Positions 1 through 6,714 of a stretch of DNA of 22,632 bases are shown piece after piece. Source of the DNA: a virus. Both the position numbers and the translations under genes were made by a program. The stretch spans positions 1 through 22,632 of IMG/VR virus record IMGVR_UViG_3300042261_000310; one strand, written 5' to 3'. The first letter of the stretch is position 1, and every line of letters begins with the position of its first letter. A model generated the notes under the pieces. That model was not told the DNA's origin and ran no database searches. It saw only the letters and a list, made by a program, of their open reading frames with translations.

Positions 1-2090
1 AATCCTTCTTTTCTACCAGATATTTCTTGAGCGGCAGTTTCGTATGTATTAAGAGCTTCTAAAGCCTGTTTTGCCTCTTCTTTTTGCTTTAAGTCTTTTG
101 ATTCTTTAAAAATCTTATTATATTTTTCTTTAAGTATATCGATTTCTTCTTGAGATAGTGTTTGTTTACCTTCTTTAAGTTGATCTACTCTTGATTTAAA
201 ATTGTCTATATATTTACTAAAATCAGAGTTAGTAGAAAAAGCTTGCTTTACAACCATACCTACCATATCTCCAATGTTTGATCCTAATTTAATGTCTCCA
301 CTTATTAATTTATTTTCCATTAAAGTAATCAAATGTGGTGCTATTTTTTGTGCTTTCGCGCTGGCTTCTTCTTTTGATTTTCCTAATTGTTCATAGAGGG
401 GTGCTTTTTGTTTGTTCGTTTCTTGTATCTCTTTAGAAATAGCCTTTAATGCCCTTTCTAAATCTGACTTTCTTTTCTGCTGCTCAACTGATAAAGGACC
501 ATTTTTGTTTAATTTATTTAATTTCGATAATTCGTCAGTATAAACCTTGCTTTTTTTCTGTAATTCAACTTGTCTGTCATTAATAGTATCAAGTGACTTT
601 TGAATTCTTTCTTGTTGTTCTTTTTGAATTTCAAATGGATTGGATGTTTTGTCGCCCTTCATAACCCAATCCCAGAAACTTTCAAGTTTCTCCCAGATCC
701 ACTTAAAAAAGTCTCCAGTAATTCCAAAGAATTTTTGAATCCATCCATCGCCTTTATCGTTCCACAAAAGAGCAATGCCTTTTTGAATCCATCCATCGCC
801 TTTATCGTTCCACAAAAGAGCAATGCCTTTTTGAATCCATCCATCACCTTTATCGTTCCAAAAATACTTACCAATATCTTCCCACCATCCACCCATTTTA
901 TCAAGTATACCACTAAAGAATCCACCCTTTTCGGGTGTGCCTGGTTTTGTGTTTTTATCTCCACCCCACCATCCAAAGAATCTTCCTAATAGATATATAC
1001 CAACACCTATAAGAAGAAGAATACCAATCCAAGGAGCAAAAGCGGCTATGATTGCTGTTACGATAGTCTGAACTAAAGTCTTGGCAATAACCCAAGCTAC
1101 TTTAACTACAGTCACCGCAATTGTTTTAAGTGTTTGCCAAACAAGAGTGAATACGAATTTAGCAATTGACTTTATAGCACCCCACATAACACCGACAATG
1201 AAACTAAATACTTTTGAAACTATCTTAAACATAAAAGCGAATGCTTGTTTAACAACCCAAAATAATCCTTGGAAAACTTTACCAACAACCCACATCAATC
1301 CTTTAACTAATTTCAATACACCTAACATAGCATATTTAATAGTCCCTACTACGAGACTATAAGCAGCTTTAACTGTCCAAATAAGTCCTTGTTTTAACTT
1401 ATTTAATGCCCAACCAACCCCAGCTATAATTTTCCCAGGAAGAGCTTTAACAAACTCAATTGGGTGCATTATAGCATTTTTGAGTTTAGCAAATCCAGCC
1501 TTAACCATACCAGTTAAAGCCGAAAGATTTGTTGAAATCATACTAATTTTACTTGCAACATAATCAAGAGCACCATTAATGGCTTCTTTAGTCTTTGTAC
1601 CTATGAATTGGGCAGCAGCGTTAATTTTCTCACCAGCAAACTCACCAAATGCGGTGAGTTTTTCTTCCATCATCATCTGGGTTTCTTTTTTAGTTTCCTC
1701 ATATGTTGCTTCTATTGACATATAAGATAAAGCGACATTATCAGCATACTTTCTAATATCAGCTTTAATAGCAGTATTAGCGGCATCTCTTTCTTTGGTA
1801 TAAACTCTCTCAAGATACTTTGCTCGTCTTTCGGCATCTACTTTAATATAATTAAAGTTAACCCTAATATCATTCATAATAACATCAACTGCTTGACGAG
1901 TTTTAATTGACCCCTCTTGATATAATTTATTTAACTTATCTGTGGTTTCTTTAAGTTCTTTAGGAAACTCATTTGCTAATTCATTTTGTTTCTTCTTTAA
2001 CTCATCAATAGCATCCTTAATAAGTTCTAATTCTTCATTAGCGGCTTTCGTTATTGGTTTTATTAATTTATCTTGTAGTACGTTAGCCAT
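1..2090 (-). CDS. Tape-measure-like tail protein, 3' part missing (runs off the left edge)
   Basis: I translated this frame from the ATG at 2090 to base 1 and found no stop: 696 codons are present and the C-terminus lies outside the window. Residues about 1-100 are charged and helical. About 235-344 form hydrophobic 11-residue repeats rich in Trp, Phe, Val and Lys. About 344-372 is one long hydrophobic stretch ending in LLGRFFGWWGG. About 411-453 holds a 16-residue tandem repeat, and the rest is Lys/Glu/Gln-rich probable coiled coil. Long helix, hydrophobic hendecads and a membrane-like segment are typical of tape-measure proteins, which set tail length and enter the host envelope. The gene begins 4 nt after the stop of the 92-codon ORF with only a weak SD, so translation is probably coupled. 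The tail-tube and gp26-type neighbours support the role. It is not clearly alignable to T4 gp29 by eye. Confidence 0.72.
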   Translation of the reverse strand, partial: MANVLQDKLIKPITKAANEELELIKDAIDELKKKQNELANEFPKELKETTDKLNKLYQEGSIKTRQAVDVIMNDIRVNFNYIKVDAERRAKYLERVYTKERDAANTAIKADIRKYADNVALSYMSIEATYEETKKETQMMMEEKLTAFGEFAGEKINAAAQFIGTKTKEAINGALDYVASKISMISTNLSALTGMVKAGFAKLKNAIMHPIEFVKALPGKIIAGVGWALNKLKQGLIWTVKAAYSLVVGTIKYAMLGVLKLVKGLMWVVGKVFQGLFWVVKQAFAFMFKIVSKVFSFIVGVMWGAIKSIAKFVFTLVWQTLKTIAVTVVKVAWVIAKTLVQTIVTAIIAAFAPWIGILLLIGVGIYLLGRFFGWWGGDKNTKPGTPEKGGFFSGILDKMGGWWEDIGKYFWNDKGDGWIQKGIALLWNDKGDGWIQKGIALLWNDKGDGWIQKFFGITGDFFKWIWEKLESFWDWVMKGDKTSNPFEIQKEQQERIQKSLDTINDRQVELQKKSKVYTDELSKLNKLNKNGPLSVEQQKRKSDLERALKAISKEIQETNKQKAPLYEQLGKSKEEASAKAQKIAPHLITLMENKLISGDIKLGSNIGDMVGMVVKQAFSTNSDFSKYIDNFKSRVDQLKEGKQTLSQEEIDILKEKYNKIFKESKDLKQKEEAKQALEALNTYETAAQEISGRKEG
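732..860 (-). repeat. 48-bp tandem repeat inside the tape-measure-like gene
   Basis: Two complete 48-bp copies (732-779 and 780-827) and a third partial copy (828-860) differ by almost no bases. The unit encodes 16 residues, KGIALLWNDKGDGWIQ, so the repeat keeps the frame. It sits just after the hydrophobic segment of the protein. Confidence 0.95.
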
Positions 2091-2094
2091 GATG

Positions 2095-2373
2095 TTACTT
2101 TAGGTTGCTTGTATTGGTCTTGGTGCCGAAAGCCCCTGCAATGGTCTTACAAATGACTTCAACGCTCTTACGGGCGAACTCGAAGGTATTTTTAATGAAC
2201 TCTTGCTTGTTCTTAGCTTCGGCATCAAACTTCTCCTTGAATACCTTTCTATAAATCTCAAATTCGTGAAGGTCTATATTATCTACCTCCCCTATATTTA
2301 TAGAAGGCGCAGCCCAGATGACCAATTCAATGCACTCGTTGAGGATAGCTTTATAGCAGCTATCCATCAACAT
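2095..2373 (-). CDS. 92-codon ORF, probable -1 frameshift extension of the gp26-type protein
   Basis: This 92-codon ORF overlaps the upstream stop as TAATG. No Shine-Dalgarno precedes either candidate ATG (2373 or 2367); the upstream bases are a T8 run followed by ATCAGCTA. The ATG lies at the base of a predicted hairpin. The reading frame is exactly -1 relative to the upstream gene, and a slippery heptamer sits 9 nt before the hairpin. I infer that it is made mainly as the C-terminal part of a fusion of about 356 residues, with coupled re-initiation as the alternative. The sequence is helical and rich in Lys/Glu, with a hydrophobic N-terminal stretch (CIELVIWAAPSINIG). I recognise no family. 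In T4 the gene after 26 is 51, but I see no convincing gp51 similarity. Position just before the tape measure suggests a tail-assembly chaperone role. Confidence 0.7.
   Translation of the reverse strand: MLMDSCYKAILNECIELVIWAAPSINIGEVDNIDLHEFEIYRKVFKEKFDAEAKNKQEFIKNTFEFARKSVEVICKTIAGAFGTKTNTSNLK
2295..2302 (-). promoter_or_regulatory. Possible internal late promoter (TATAAATA)
   Basis: A perfect minus-strand TATAAATA lies inside the 92-codon ORF, about 205 nt before the tape-measure-like start. It could supply extra late transcripts of that gene. It could equally be a chance match in AT-rich coding sequence (Ser-Ile-Asn-Ile codons). Confidence 0.35.
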
Positions 2374-2388
2374 TAGCTGATAAAAAAA
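2337..2388 (-). promoter_or_regulatory. Putative programmed -1 frameshift site with hairpin
   Basis: Reading leftwards, codons GTT TTT TTT ATC contain the slippery heptamer T TTT TTT (2388-2382). After a 9-nt spacer (2381-2373) comes a hairpin. Its upper stem, 2365-2359 with 2349-2343 (GGATAGC/GCTATCC), has a 9-nt loop. A one-base bulge at 2366 separates this from a lower stem, 2370-2367 with 2342-2339, extended by G2371-C2338 and T2372-G2337. Slipping back one base after F261 gives Y-Q-L and then the 92-codon ORF in frame, with no intervening stop. Confidence 0.72.
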
Positions 2389-3164
2389 ACGGCTATATTA
2401 ACCTCTTGCTCTTCTTCGTGTCCGCATTTCTCGCACTTGAATTCAAAAGGCATCTTAACACCGAAATCAGTGTTCTTGAAGTATTCAAAGACAGTATCTA
2501 ATTCGGATGCTGGGAGATTCTCAAAGAAGTCAATTGTTTCTTCGGTTGAAAGTTTAACCTCAGATTCAATATCATCTTGCTTCATATTAATTGACTTGAT
2601 AATACCCGCCATTAATGCAAAATTCTTTTCTGATGTGGAGGTTAATTTAGCCTTCTTAATGTATCTTTCAATCTCAATTTCCTTTTCTCTAGTCATAGGA
2701 CCGAGAAGTAACTTAATATTCCCATTAGCCAAAACTAACTCATCACCCTTTTCTGGTTTTGAGTAGGATTTAACATACATGGAGTTTAAATCATAGACGA
2801 TCTCTTTATTAACATGACCGCATGTTGGGCATTCGTGGGCAATCTTAGCAGTAGTTCCAGCAGCAGAAACTCTAATATGCACTAAAAGTTGGAATCTTTC
2901 TTGGGATGTTAAAGTATTAACATTAAAAGTTGAACCATCAGCATATTCGGCATATTTCTCAATAACCTCATCAAGAGCTTTATTAATAATAGTTTCGTTT
3001 TTAGATTCAATTGCTTTTAGAATCTCTTTCTTATCCTTTATCTTTAAAGGTTTTACGAATACTTCCTTCTGTGAATAGCAAAGTTTAATCGCATTTTCTG
3101 GTGCGGATTTGGTTGCATACATCTTCTTTAAATCAGTCAACGAAAAATTCGGTCTGTCGCTCAT
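2373..3164 (-). CDS. T4 gp26-type baseplate hub / tail-assembly protein with zinc-ribbon motifs
   Basis: 263 aa. The pattern matches, as I recall it, the T4 baseplate (gp26-type) family: an N-terminal region predicting a small beta/alpha module (residues about 25-75), the segment ERFQLLVHIRVSAAG, then CPTCGH (C112, C115). A second cysteine pair, CEKCGH (C244, C247), lies near the C-terminus, so the two pairs could bind one metal. In T4 gp26 belongs to the central baseplate hub pathway. Here the gene lies between tail tube and tape measure, the slot of tail-assembly chaperones in other tailed phages. The start is well supported by AAGGAGCTTTTATG. The zero-frame product ends F-F-I-S; the T8 run before the stop forms a putative -1 shift site into the next ORF. 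Family assignment is fairly sure; the exact role is inferred. Confidence 0.72.
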   Translation of the reverse strand: MSDRPNFSLTDLKKMYATKSAPENAIKLCYSQKEVFVKPLKIKDKKEILKAIESKNETIINKALDEVIEKYAEYADGSTFNVNTLTSQERFQLLVHIRVSAAGTTAKIAHECPTCGHVNKEIVYDLNSMYVKSYSKPEKGDELVLANGNIKLLLGPMTREKEIEIERYIKKAKLTSTSEKNFALMAGIIKSINMKQDDIESEVKLSTEETIDFFENLPASELDTVFEYFKNTDFGVKMPFEFKCEKCGHEEEQEVNIAVFFIS

Positions 3165-3206: not shown

Positions 3207-3911
3207 TTATATTAAAGGTACTTGTGGAACGGCTTTTCCGCCGTACACATCAAATAAACCAGTCATATTGTTTTGTGGTGTGCCCTCTTTAGGGGGGCGA
3301 CCAACAACACCACTTAAATTTAATCCACTTTGGGTATCAGTACCAGTTGCTAACTGGATTCCTTTTTCAAGCATATTACCACTGTCAACTGAGAAGTAGT
3401 CATAAGCAAAGGTAACGGTTAATTTAGAATAATCTGTTTTATCGTGACCTAACTCAATTTGACCGACTTCCATTGGAAACATACCTATGAATTGATATGT
3501 TTGAACCTTCTCACCAATTCTGGATAGTTGATGTACTTTACAGCCATCATATTTGTACGAATGCGGTGATGCGTTTGAATTTTGATGTGGGTCATATGCT
3601 TGAGACATCCATGCCAAAAATTTACTTCTTAGAGAATAAACTTGGTCATTAAGGAACTCAACTGTCCAATTTGCAAAGGTTGCTCCATTAACGACTTTTC
3701 TTTTAGCTCCTTGGAATTCAAACTCATCCACATTAAGGGCGTATGCTGGAATTGAGGTTGACATAGCGAATGCTGTTAGTTTTCTTGCATCTGTTTCTAT
3801 GTTTGGCATTTCTACCATAAACAAGTATGGACGAGAAACATCATCAATGATTTTCCTAAAACTATGTAGGTTAAAGCTCGTATCGTTACCAAAATCTTTA
3901 GGAAATGGCAT
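3207..3911 (-). CDS. Tail tube protein paralogue, second copy (gp19-like)
   Basis: 234 aa. It aligns over its whole length with the gene just upstream: shared MPFP start, RPYLFM(V/I)EMPNI, then about residue 80 WTVEFLNDQVYSLRSKFLAWM, SYKYDxxKVxQLxRxGxxxxTYQF(I/V)G(M/L)FP, and a final FAYDYF(S)VD near residue 185. These are the blocks of T4 gp19, whose hexameric rings build the tail tube inside the sheath. T4 gp19 is 163 aa, so both copies carry a C-terminal extension. A terminator-like hairpin separates the copies and the SD here is weak (AAAGGGTAATATAA before ATG), so this copy may be made at lower level. It may be a minor tube component at one end, like T4 gp54 or gp48, rather than the main subunit. 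Its tail is PPKEGTPQNNMTGLFDVYGG-like and unlike the first copy. Confidence 0.85.
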   Translation of the reverse strand: MPFPKDFGNDTSFNLHSFRKIIDDVSRPYLFMVEMPNIETDARKLTAFAMSTSIPAYALNVDEFEFQGAKRKVVNGATFANWTVEFLNDQVYSLRSKFLAWMSQAYDPHQNSNASPHSYKYDGCKVHQLSRIGEKVQTYQFIGMFPMEVGQIELGHDKTDYSKLTVTFAYDYFSVDSGNMLEKGIQLATGTDTQSGLNLSGVVGRPPKEGTPQNNMTGLFDVYGGKAVPQVPLI

Positions 3912-3989: not shown

Positions 3990-4655
3990 TTAGGCTCCAC
4001 CGTTTGTGGCGGTGTTTCCTGACTGTGTATTGATATCCGTTTCGCCAGAGAGAGCAGTAAGGTCGGTCTGAGCGCCAATACCAGTTGCACCAATTTGGAA
4101 AGCGTTTTCGGTTGGTACGAATGGGTTGGAAGCATCCAATGTGTAGTAGTCATATGCGAATTCAACTGGGAACTTACTCCACCCAGTTTCTTCGTGTGAT
4201 AACTGAATGTCACCAACTGAGGTTGGGAACAAACCGACGAACTGATAAGTTGCGATACGAGCGCCGTTTCTTGCTAACTGGACAACTTTAGCAAGGTCGT
4301 ATTTATATGAAACTGGAGCACCTGCTTGTAATCTCTGGATATCATAAGCAGTCTGCACCCAACTCATGAAGCGGTTACGAAGAGCATGAAGTTCATCGCA
4401 AAGGAACTCTACTTGCCAAGTTCCTTCAACATTTGCTGGGCCAGCTAATCGAAGCTTTTGTGATTGGAAAGGCACTTCAATGGTGCTGACCGAATACTTT
4501 GGTAAGCTTGAGGTACGGGCAAATGCCGTTACTTTTGCTGTATTCGTATCAATATTAGGCATCTCTATCATGAATAAGTATGGACGGCTTACATCACGAA
4601 TGGTCTGACGGAAGCTATAGAGATTCATTGGTTCTACATCTGATGGGAATGGCAT
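3990..4655 (-). CDS. gp19: Tail tube protein (gp19-like), first copy
   Basis: 221 aa; T4 gp19 is 163 aa. Similar blocks are RPYLFMIEMPNI near residue 25, SSLPKYSVSTIEVPF, a TWQVEFLCDELHALRNRFMSW helix near residue 80-100, the TYQFVGLFPTSVGDIQLS strand pair, and FAYDYYTLD. T4 gp19 shows the same order (RPNLF..., ALPAG..., DWTVTVMNDE..., GLWPTNVGELQL..., LALDYWE). This protein polymerises as the inner tube through which DNA passes. It directly follows the sheath gene gp18, as in T4, with AGGAGAAACCT before ATG. The C-terminal ~35 residues are Thr/Asn/Gly-rich and extra relative to T4. I take it as the main tube subunit because it lies nearest the sheath promoters and ahead of the terminator. 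Confidence 0.92.
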   Translation of the reverse strand: MPFPSDVEPMNLYSFRQTIRDVSRPYLFMIEMPNIDTNTAKVTAFARTSSLPKYSVSTIEVPFQSQKLRLAGPANVEGTWQVEFLCDELHALRNRFMSWVQTAYDIQRLQAGAPVSYKYDLAKVVQLARNGARIATYQFVGLFPTSVGDIQLSHEETGWSKFPVEFAYDYYTLDASNPFVPTENAFQIGATGIGAQTDLTALSGETDINTQSGNTATNGGA

Positions 4656-4686: not shown

Positions 4687-4732
4687 AAGCTCCACCGACT
4701 ACTTCTGAGAAGCTCCACCGACTACTTCTGAG
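4687..4732 (-). repeat. 23-bp perfect tandem duplication at the 3' end of gp18
   Basis: Two identical 23-bp copies (4687-4709 and 4710-4732) span the sheath stop codon, and the first 6 bases of a third copy follow (4733-4738). Because 23 is not a multiple of 3, the second copy is read in a new frame and creates the present stop TAG (4701-4699). Confidence 0.97.
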
Positions 4733-6714
4733 AAGCTCACACCAGTATTTACGGCAGTAAATACGAGTTTGATGAACTCAATTGCGCGGGTTGGTTTAAC
4801 GAGTATCTCAGCGACGAATTCGTTACGATCAACAACGTCTGGTGGGTTGTTTGATGCATCACAGACAACAAGGAAGTCACTTACGCCGCGACGAACCTTA
4901 ACATCTGATAAGAAGCCGTTAACAATTCCACGGAATCTGCTACGAGTAATCTCGTCATTGATTTCAAAGAGGAAGTAACGAGCCAACTTCTCAATTGAAC
5001 GCTCCATATGTAGGAACAAACGACGGACATTGATTCTATCGAAGGCACTTGGACGAGCCTGAAGTGTCTTTTGACCCCAAATAACGATGCCTTGACCAAC
5101 AAAGTTAACAATTGGGTTGATTCTGTTGACATACATAACATCTCTTTGTGGTTTGTCTGGGGTAATTGCAACATCGGTTATGCCGTCAATAACACCACGA
5201 TTCAATCCTGCTGGAGCATACCACTGAGCGGTGTTGAAGTCAACACGAGCAACGGTTGCTCCGACATAACCCGTTGCTGGAACCCAGCGTTCAACTTCAT
5301 TGTATCTATCGAAAATCTTGAAGTATTGACCGTAGATTGCAGAGTACGAAGAGTTAATGTTCAAATCACTTGCTACATAGTTCTTCATACTGGTTACATA
5401 TTGAGCAATTGGACGATGGGTTGATATGTTAACCATCTTATCTTCTGGGACATTAAGAATAACGAAACAATCCTTACGGATATTCTTTGCAATATCATCA
5501 AGGGCCTGCTTGAGAACAGTTGGATAATCTGGATCAAGGAACACATCAAGATCTAAGGTTTCTTTGTTTGTGAACCATTCTCTCCATTGAGATTCAATTT
5601 CACCATTCAAGTCGCCAAGAGAGGCGGTTAAAGCATCTGCACCAGCTAAGTTAATCTTTCCAGTTGTAACTGGTTCAATTCCAGAGGCGAGGGTTGGGTC
5701 GCCACCAATGAAGAAGTAAATGTATTTACTGTTTCCATTAATTACCTCTGGAGCAAACATCTTGTTCCCCAAATCATCCACTTTGTCTGGAGTATTTGAA
5801 ACGAGGTATTGTTCTACCAAGTTTCCTTTTGGATCATATACGAACAAAGCAAACTCATCGCTATTGACATATGTTGATGTATTTGTATCAAGAGTTGCTT
5901 GTGGACCATACTCAAATGAGGTATACTGGTCAAGAAGGCCAGTGTCAAGATACCAAACTTGTTTAGCATCAATTACATCTGATGTAATAAGGTCATCTTT
6001 GACAAGAGAGCAAGAGAGGTAGTCACCAGCGTCAGTGTAGTAAGCATCGCTTGATGCTGGTGGGGTCGTACCATCCCAAACAGCGTCACCAGAAAGTGCT
6101 GGAGTACCAGTGTAATATTTCTGGATGATTGCTTGCTTGGCTTGTGTGGTTACGGCCTGTGAATACTCTTCTTTAAGCTCAAGAAGGGTCTTGTAGTCAA
6201 CTGAGTTAATAGTGACAATTTGAACACCTTCATAGTAAGGACCAGCACCAACGGCATAAACGTGGAAGAATTCTGAGCCACCACCAGTATTGAATACTGG
6301 AACATTACCATTCATTGCCTCTGAGTCACCAACATTATCATATGTGAGAGGATAGAATTCTGCTGCCTTTGGAGTTGGGTAGGAACTAATGAGTGCGCCA
6401 CCGCAAGCGGTGAATGCACCAGAAGTACCAACAGTAACACCAGCGCAAAGCTTGGTCTTATCTTCTGTTCTAACAACCCAAAGCTGATCAGAAGCTTTGA
6501 GGAAGGCAGACGCGGTGAACCAATGCTTGAAGTTCACATTATCGGGTTCACCGAAAGTTTCAACAAATGTCTTTTCATCATTGATTAAAATTGGTTTATT
6601 GATAGCTCCTTTTTCGGCAGCTATGACTATTGCACCGACACTTGATGTAACGGTTGGGATTCTTACGGTGAAATCGCGTTCAATAATTTCTACGCCTGGT
6701 GAGAGTTGTGCCAT
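4699..6714 (-). CDS. gp18: Contractile tail sheath protein gp18
   Basis: 671 aa (T4 gp18 is 659). The start MAQLSPGVEIIERDFTV is typical of T4-type sheaths. The C-terminal third, from about residue 550, carries RINVRRLFLHMERSIEKLARY, FEINDEITRSRFRG, DFLVVCDASNNPPDVVDRNEF and VKPTRAIEFIKLVF, closely following the T4 gp18 C-terminal core that forms the inner sheath layer and the interlocking arms. The protein surrounds the tail tube and contracts during infection. The start is set by AAAGGAGCTTTTAT before ATG. Two late promoter octamers lie upstream. The C-terminus reads EVVGGASQK; a 23-bp duplication appears to have added SQK to an ancestral end at EVVGGA. Confidence 0.96.
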   Translation of the reverse strand: MAQLSPGVEIIERDFTVRIPTVTSSVGAIVIAAEKGAINKPILINDEKTFVETFGEPDNVNFKHWFTASAFLKASDQLWVVRTEDKTKLCAGVTVGTSGAFTACGGALISSYPTPKAAEFYPLTYDNVGDSEAMNGNVPVFNTGGGSEFFHVYAVGAGPYYEGVQIVTINSVDYKTLLELKEEYSQAVTTQAKQAIIQKYYTGTPALSGDAVWDGTTPPASSDAYYTDAGDYLSCSLVKDDLITSDVIDAKQVWYLDTGLLDQYTSFEYGPQATLDTNTSTYVNSDEFALFVYDPKGNLVEQYLVSNTPDKVDDLGNKMFAPEVINGNSKYIYFFIGGDPTLASGIEPVTTGKINLAGADALTASLGDLNGEIESQWREWFTNKETLDLDVFLDPDYPTVLKQALDDIAKNIRKDCFVILNVPEDKMVNISTHRPIAQYVTSMKNYVASDLNINSSYSAIYGQYFKIFDRYNEVERWVPATGYVGATVARVDFNTAQWYAPAGLNRGVIDGITDVAITPDKPQRDVMYVNRINPIVNFVGQGIVIWGQKTLQARPSAFDRINVRRLFLHMERSIEKLARYFLFEINDEITRSRFRGIVNGFLSDVKVRRGVSDFLVVCDASNNPPDVVDRNEFVAEILVKPTRAIEFIKLVFTAVNTGVSFSEVVGGASQK

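Follow-up and report, generated by a model that had tools for sequence, protein, structure and literature searches.

Does the gp26-type gene that ends shortly before a tape-measure-like gene also give rise to a longer protein, and how would ribosomes reach the second reading frame? This question is raised by a locus on the minus strand of a viral sequence of 22,632 nucleotides (IMG/VR record IMGVR_UViG_3300042261_000310), the whole of which is termed here the window. At this locus the gp26-type ORF1 overlaps a second open frame, ORF2, and an initial annotation of the sequence proposed that the two are joined by a programmed -1 frameshift. Judged from sequence comparisons, the locus very probably encodes a tail-assembly-chaperone pair of the lambda G/GT type, which is generated by programmed -1 frameshifting with signals resembling those of Escherichia coli dnaX. 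The features of the locus are compiled in Table 1.

Table 1. Features of the gp26/gp51-like locus (window coordinates).
Feature	Position	Strand	Description
Tape-measure-like gene	3..2090	(-)	696 aa in the window, gene incomplete; assigned by position, coiled and central hydrophobic segments
ORF2, -1 frame extension (gp51 C-terminal-like domain)	2095..2388	(-)	FFYQLM..., 97 aa; predicted fusion 356 aa
Putative stimulatory hairpin	2337..2372	(-)	13 pairs, with U.G as a possible 14th; loop of 7 nt, single bulged base
ATG overlapping the ORF1 stop (TAATG)	2371..2373	(-)	Possible reinitiation start
ORF1, gp26-type short product (TAC-N)	2373..3164	(-)	263 aa; PF12322, PHROG 150, AlphaFold/Foldseek
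Slippery heptamer T TTT TTT	2382..2388	(-)	In phase, within the T8 run 2389-2382; conserved in relatives
SD-like putative stimulator AAGAGG	2402..2407	(-)	13 nt 5' of the heptamer; role suggested by dnaX

By its sequence, ORF1 is a member of the PF12322/gp26 family. Profile searches match it to PF12322 (T4_baseplate, E 1.2e-24), in agreement with the gp26-type first product of the initial annotation, and to PHROG 150 (baseplate hub, E 1e-23). The AlphaFold model of ORF1 (pLDDT 86) retrieves T4-like baseplate hub and hub assembly chaperone proteins as top Foldseek matches, with E-values down to 6e-13. A search of the PDB with the same model returned nothing significant, just proteasome noise, and the solved TAC fold (e.g., HK97 gp13) was not matched; therefore, ORF1 is filed here with gp26/gp51, working like G/GT, and not as a member of the TAC fold. 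Compared directly with the single T4 gp26 and gp51 sequences, the ORF1 profile gave marginal matches, and alignments of fusion profiles were used instead. The zinc ribbon that had also been ascribed to the first product is at best hinted at, as Zn_ribbon_8 matches residues 240-256 with an E-value of 1e-4, under the profile's own cut-off. The genes around the locus are T4-like structural genes and code for the tail tube (twice), sheath, terminase, sheath stabiliser, major head protein, scaffold, protease and portal. The two tail-tube genes are adjacent, divergent paralogues (window 3207-3911 and 3990-4655; both PHROG 45), and a 23-bp tandem repeat (2.4 copies, window 4687-4743) is found at and just past the 3' end of the tail sheath gene.

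The tape-measure-like gene that follows ORF2 is complete at 1211 aa in a matching IMG/VR contig (L017). While the window gene itself found no direct profile match, the ORFs in the same position of L011, L028, L032 and L055 match tape-measure PHROGs (E 7e-10 to 7e-19). In most lineages the next ORF, of 700-1211 aa, starts no more than about 55 nt after ORF2. In L020 (IMGVR_UViG_3300038463_000124) the tape-measure-like ORF starts about 398 nt past ORF2, leaving a gap. The window gene also harbours a 48-bp in-frame tandem repeat (732-864; 2.8 copies, 97% match) of the unit WNDKGDGWIQKGIALL, possibly a length-varying element. ORF1 and ORF2 are located directly upstream of the tape-measure-like gene, as is characteristic of lambda-type G/GT pairs, and the initial comparison with lambda G/GT gains support from this arrangement, in which the predicted short and long products are encoded next to a putative tape measure protein.

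ORF1 ends in ...NIAV-FF-IS-stop, encoded by GTT TTT TTT ATC AGC TAA, and the overlap of the two frames thus contains an in-phase slippery heptamer, as expected of a -1 frameshift site. Read from 2388, the -1 frame is open for 97 residues up to a stop at 2095, and it is blocked by another stop a few codons 5' of the T run. No SD is found in range of the ATG at 2373, the sole SD-like element (AAGAGG) being about 28 nt away. In these respects the initial annotation read the DNA correctly: the heptamer is in phase in GTT TTT TTT, and the downstream ORF is in the -1 frame, is open across the junction, lacks an SD and has an ATG. Its total of 356 residues for the fusion also stands, and the junction requires a minor correction, in that the unshifted product ends in FF-Ile-Ser and the shifted product would continue as FF-Tyr-Gln-Leu-Met.... 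The heptamer alone proves little, because T TTT TTN is also found within the terminase and other genes of the window. Overall, the window genes contain 52 in-phase X XXY YYZ heptamers per 6836 codon positions, a frequency at which about 0.05 are expected per stretch of six last codons. The evidence consequently resides in conservation.

Upstream of the heptamer, the SD-like AAGAGG occupies the position expected of a frameshift-stimulating SD. The GAG codon within this element is retained in most of 14 family lineages, in which GAG accounts for 13-53% of the Glu codons. Downstream, a putative hairpin is separated from the heptamer by 9-10 nt, and hence RNA structure is present at a distance suitable for -1 frameshifting. 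The stem is composed of GUUGA/UCAAC plus GGAUAGCU/AGCUAUCC; the earlier description (12-13 pairs, one bulge, a spacer of 9 nt) agrees with our count. The window hairpin has a dG of -21.3 kcal/mol, with a z-score of -4.6 against dinucleotide shuffles and of -5.5 against synonymous recodings, i.e., a stability beyond the need of the coded protein. Over the window family, the hairpins reach a Stouffer z of -11.5 against synonymous shuffles. Their sequences are unlike between lineages, yet a hairpin is present, and compensatory changes occur within sub-clades; in L009, L020 and L028 the hairpin is weak (z -0.3 to -1.0 against synonymous shuffles). Within the window's own trio, 10 of the 13 hairpin pairs are invariant, which leaves covariation uninformative there, and the case for the hairpin rests on the shuffles and on the unlike hairpins of other lineages.

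Relatives of the window were chosen without using the frameshift site, by searching IMG/VR with a profile limited to the C-terminal half of ORF2. The search retrieved 15 loci from about 12 lineages, all of which share T TTT TTT ATC ARY TRA TG with ORF2 in the -1 frame, including relatives with an ORF1 identity as low as 44%. The heptamer is kept even though the Phe codon TTT makes up just 18-25% of usage in some family genes, and in L011 (GCT TTT TTT) the run consists of exactly seven T, the minimal heptamer. Across 14 lineages, the naive codon-usage probability of the slippery codons is about 1e-13, a figure to which partly non-independent lineages and the motif-found L038 and L048 contribute. 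The latter two were left out of the unbiased evidence; of the 32 matches of the motif-pattern search, many were rejected as chance occurrences in which the open frames were short. In an alignment of 26 ORF1 sequences, including cyanophage-type gp26, the Phe pair of the slippery site represents two of only three invariant residues.

A weak match in INPHARED, cyanophage C48C1, extends the comparison: its gp26 gene ends GAT TTT TTT TAA, and gp51 is found in the -1 frame with no start nearby. P0002 gave no match in INPHARED. A profile restricted to the gp51 domain retrieved 80 cyanophage-type loci from IMG/VR, and in every one of them gp26 ends NNT TTT TTC with gp51 in the -1 frame. The codon before TTT TTC always ends in T (AGT 40, TCT 32, GAT 5, others), and Ser at this position is encoded by AGT or TCT in 72/72 cases, never by AGC, TCC, TCA or TCG. 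About 10 nt further upstream, GAG-G or GAA-GGG is present in 75 of the 80 loci, compared with a GAG usage of 32%. The hairpins of these loci also exceed synonymous shuffles (mean z -2.7), and in a stem of a common type four of the five pairs have changed on both sides. With the heptamer in all 15 family loci and all 80 cyanophage-type loci, and hairpins above synonymous shuffles, both sets support the -1 frameshift proposed initially, and neither includes a locus with a broken T run beside an ORF2 that keeps its own SD and start.

The -1 layout of gp26 and gp51, mostly with a T6C site, is shared by 16 cultivated or single-cell T4-like phages: C48C1, ACG-2014d, S-SM2, P-RSM4, P-HM2, S-PM2, S-PRM1, DSL-LC02, AG-345-D19, Melnitz, phiN3, Cr30, CZ01, F86, AS-szw and YB07. 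These span Kyanoviridae, Straboviridae (Vibrio, Aeromonas) and phages of Sinorhizobium, Caulobacter, Stenotrophomonas and Methylophilales. In ACG-2014d, AS-szw and S-PRM1 gp51 is unannotated, and in C48C1 it appears as a 34-aa fragment (L062, L156, L159 and L061 4762-4866), a probable consequence of the lack of a proper start codon for the -1 extension. There are two exceptions to the layout. The T4/Cronus clade has a full-length, separate gp51. In one distant lineage, the Vibrio phages D528/K361 (L072, L158, around 1488), gp51 is kept in the -1 frame together with TAATG, but gp26 ends CTT TTC AAG and the heptamer is lost; with its ATG kept, this lineage is a partial case of a broken T run, and a switch from frameshifting to reinitiation is possible.

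ORF2 itself is more difficult to place. Searches of Pfam, PHROG and NCBIfam gave no direct match of note, and its model (pLDDT 80) is helical (H2-26, H32-36, H40-88). When fusion profiles are compared, that of the window family and that of the cyanophages align over 286 columns (E 9e-18), in register via FF into the extension, most of the score being probably derived from ORF1. The cyanophage fusion in turn matches T4 gp51, the product of one uninterrupted gene (E 9e-10), and the alignment again crosses the junction; in T4 gp51, PF12322 covers residues 1-201 and PHROG 634 residues 147-246. Homology of the window ORF2 to the C-terminal domain of gp51 is probable and falls short of proof, because PHROG 634 fails to detect ORF2 and ORF2 alone scores marginally against the gp51 domain profile (E 0.003). 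By these alignments, T4 gene 51 encodes what other T4-like phages appear to make by frameshifting. A search of genome contigs with the ORF2 C-terminal profile found no relative and hence no clue to the host.

Several other processes could link the two frames. Frameshifting might produce the fusion while reinitiation at TAATG adds some free C-terminal domain, a combination that is compatible with the frameshift reading and that we regard as possible but doubtful. Both the window family and several non-cyanophage T4-like phages conserve the heptamer as well as the ATG; on the other hand, no need for a free C-terminal domain is known, and an ATG overlapping the stop is mostly absent from the cyanophage-type loci, 66 of the 80 having TAG as the gp26 stop. 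TRATG together with a frameshift site occurs in the window family (window 2371-2375) and in the non-cyanophage T4-like L070, L071, L154, L068, L069 and L157, but not in most cyanophage-type loci.

Termination followed by reinitiation alone would give a free ORF2 protein of 92 aa, with the T run and the hairpin being incidental or aiding the coupling. This explanation is improbable, although the TRATG overlap is present in 14/14 family lineages as well as in CZ01, F86, YB07, AG-345-D19, phiN3 and Cr30, and a coupled restart needs no SD. It does not account for the invariant phase and wobble bases of the heptamer, the conserved FFYQL codons 5' of the ATG, the presence of an SD-like element 13 nt upstream of the slippery site or the in-register homology with the single-gene T4 gp51. 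Moreover, some cyanophage-type loci lack any start codon there; in L104, L146 and L152 no ATG, GTG or TTG precedes the gp51 domain. The ATG may instead reflect a hydrophobic residue whose codon is forced to start with the A of the stop codon.

Still less probable is transcriptional slippage, by which RNA polymerase would add or drop bases on the T8 run and thus generate mRNAs in the second frame. Eight T are long enough to raise the suspicion, but the run of L011 comprises only seven, the T6C sites of the cyanophage type are short and broken, and an SD-like element 5' of the run together with an RNA structure 3' of it fits an effect on ribosomes. An assembly or sequencing error splitting one gene at an error-prone homopolymer is refuted by the recurrence of this layout in about 12 lineages from metagenomes and, mostly with T6C, in finished cultivated genomes.

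The signals, the frames, their conservation and the homology to the T4 gp26/gp51 system can be read from the sequences compared here. From these we infer that the shift occurs, at an efficiency that keeps the fusion rare, and that its products serve as chaperones. By programmed -1 frameshifting, most ribosomes would stop at the TAA and release the 263-aa gp26-type protein, and a minority would be delayed by the hairpin and the SD-like sequence. On T TTT TTT these ribosomes would slip by -1, with tRNA-Phe re-pairing from UUU to UUU in both sites, and then read YQLM... to complete the 356-aa gp26-gp51-like fusion, to which the new frame would contribute 97 residues counting the two shared Phe. 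If the pair works as lambda gpG/gpGT does, the domain common to both forms would coat the product of the adjacent tape-measure-like gene, and the C-terminal extension of the rarer form would recruit tail-tube subunits.

The lambda gpG/gpGT pair slips on G GGA AAG. The window locus resembles it in layout, with a short product, a predicted rare -1 extended product and the order before the tape measure gene (PMC5009743). In E. coli dnaX, an upstream SD, a slippery heptamer and a downstream hairpin are combined (PMC5600365); the three-part design is alike, whereas the function of the product differs and dnaX slips on A AAA AAG. T4 makes the same two protein forms, as gp51 consists of a gp26-like domain plus a C-terminal extension, but genes 26 and 51 are separate, on opposite strands and without a frameshift site, gp26 ending GAG TTC TTT GAG. 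T4 was listed as the exception to G-T frameshifting in a 2016 recoding review (PMC5009743). T4 gp51 is needed for assembly and is absent from the particle (PMC3004832).

The initial annotation did not regard such a frameshift as standard for T4 relatives, which needs correcting. Vladimirov, Gautam and Davidson reportedly identified the TAC genes of T4-like phages in 2022 (Virology 566:9-15). In papers that cite this work, poly-T -1 signals are described as known in T4-like TAC-N genes (a 2025 paper; PMC12846349), and some T4-like phages are said to carry short and long copies (PMC10885494). With T4-like chaperones and poly-T shift signals already reported, the window locus is a divergent new case; the 2022 study may itself already cover the three-signal design and how nearly universal it is outside the T4 clade. 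In common with the T4-like gp26/gp51 loci with poly-T, the window has a homologous first product, the position before the tape measure gene, a probably gp51-type -1 extension and T TTT TTN coding for FF. In contrast to the usual T4-like loci, its extension is longer and too divergent for PHROG 634, and the site is T TTT TTT A instead of T TTT TTC G, with a stop overlapping an ATG and a strong, long hairpin.

We consider it likely that a -1 frameshift governed by three signals (an SD-like GAGG, T TTT TTC/T and a hairpin) at the gp26/gp51 junction is ancestral and nearly universal in T4-like phages, that T4 and its close relatives are derived via gene duplication, and that the long-unexplained, essential gp51 corresponds to the GT form; the window clade would add a new, longer C-terminal domain. 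An unannotated clade of environmental phages, of which the window phage is known here from metagenomes alone, is now linked to the gp26/gp51 system, and gp51 proves to be truncated or missed in the annotation of several T4-like genomes, where it lacks a proper start codon. With one presumably frameshifted gene in most T4-like phages and two duplicated genes in T4, the role of the essential gp51 and the required ratio of short to long form become testable.
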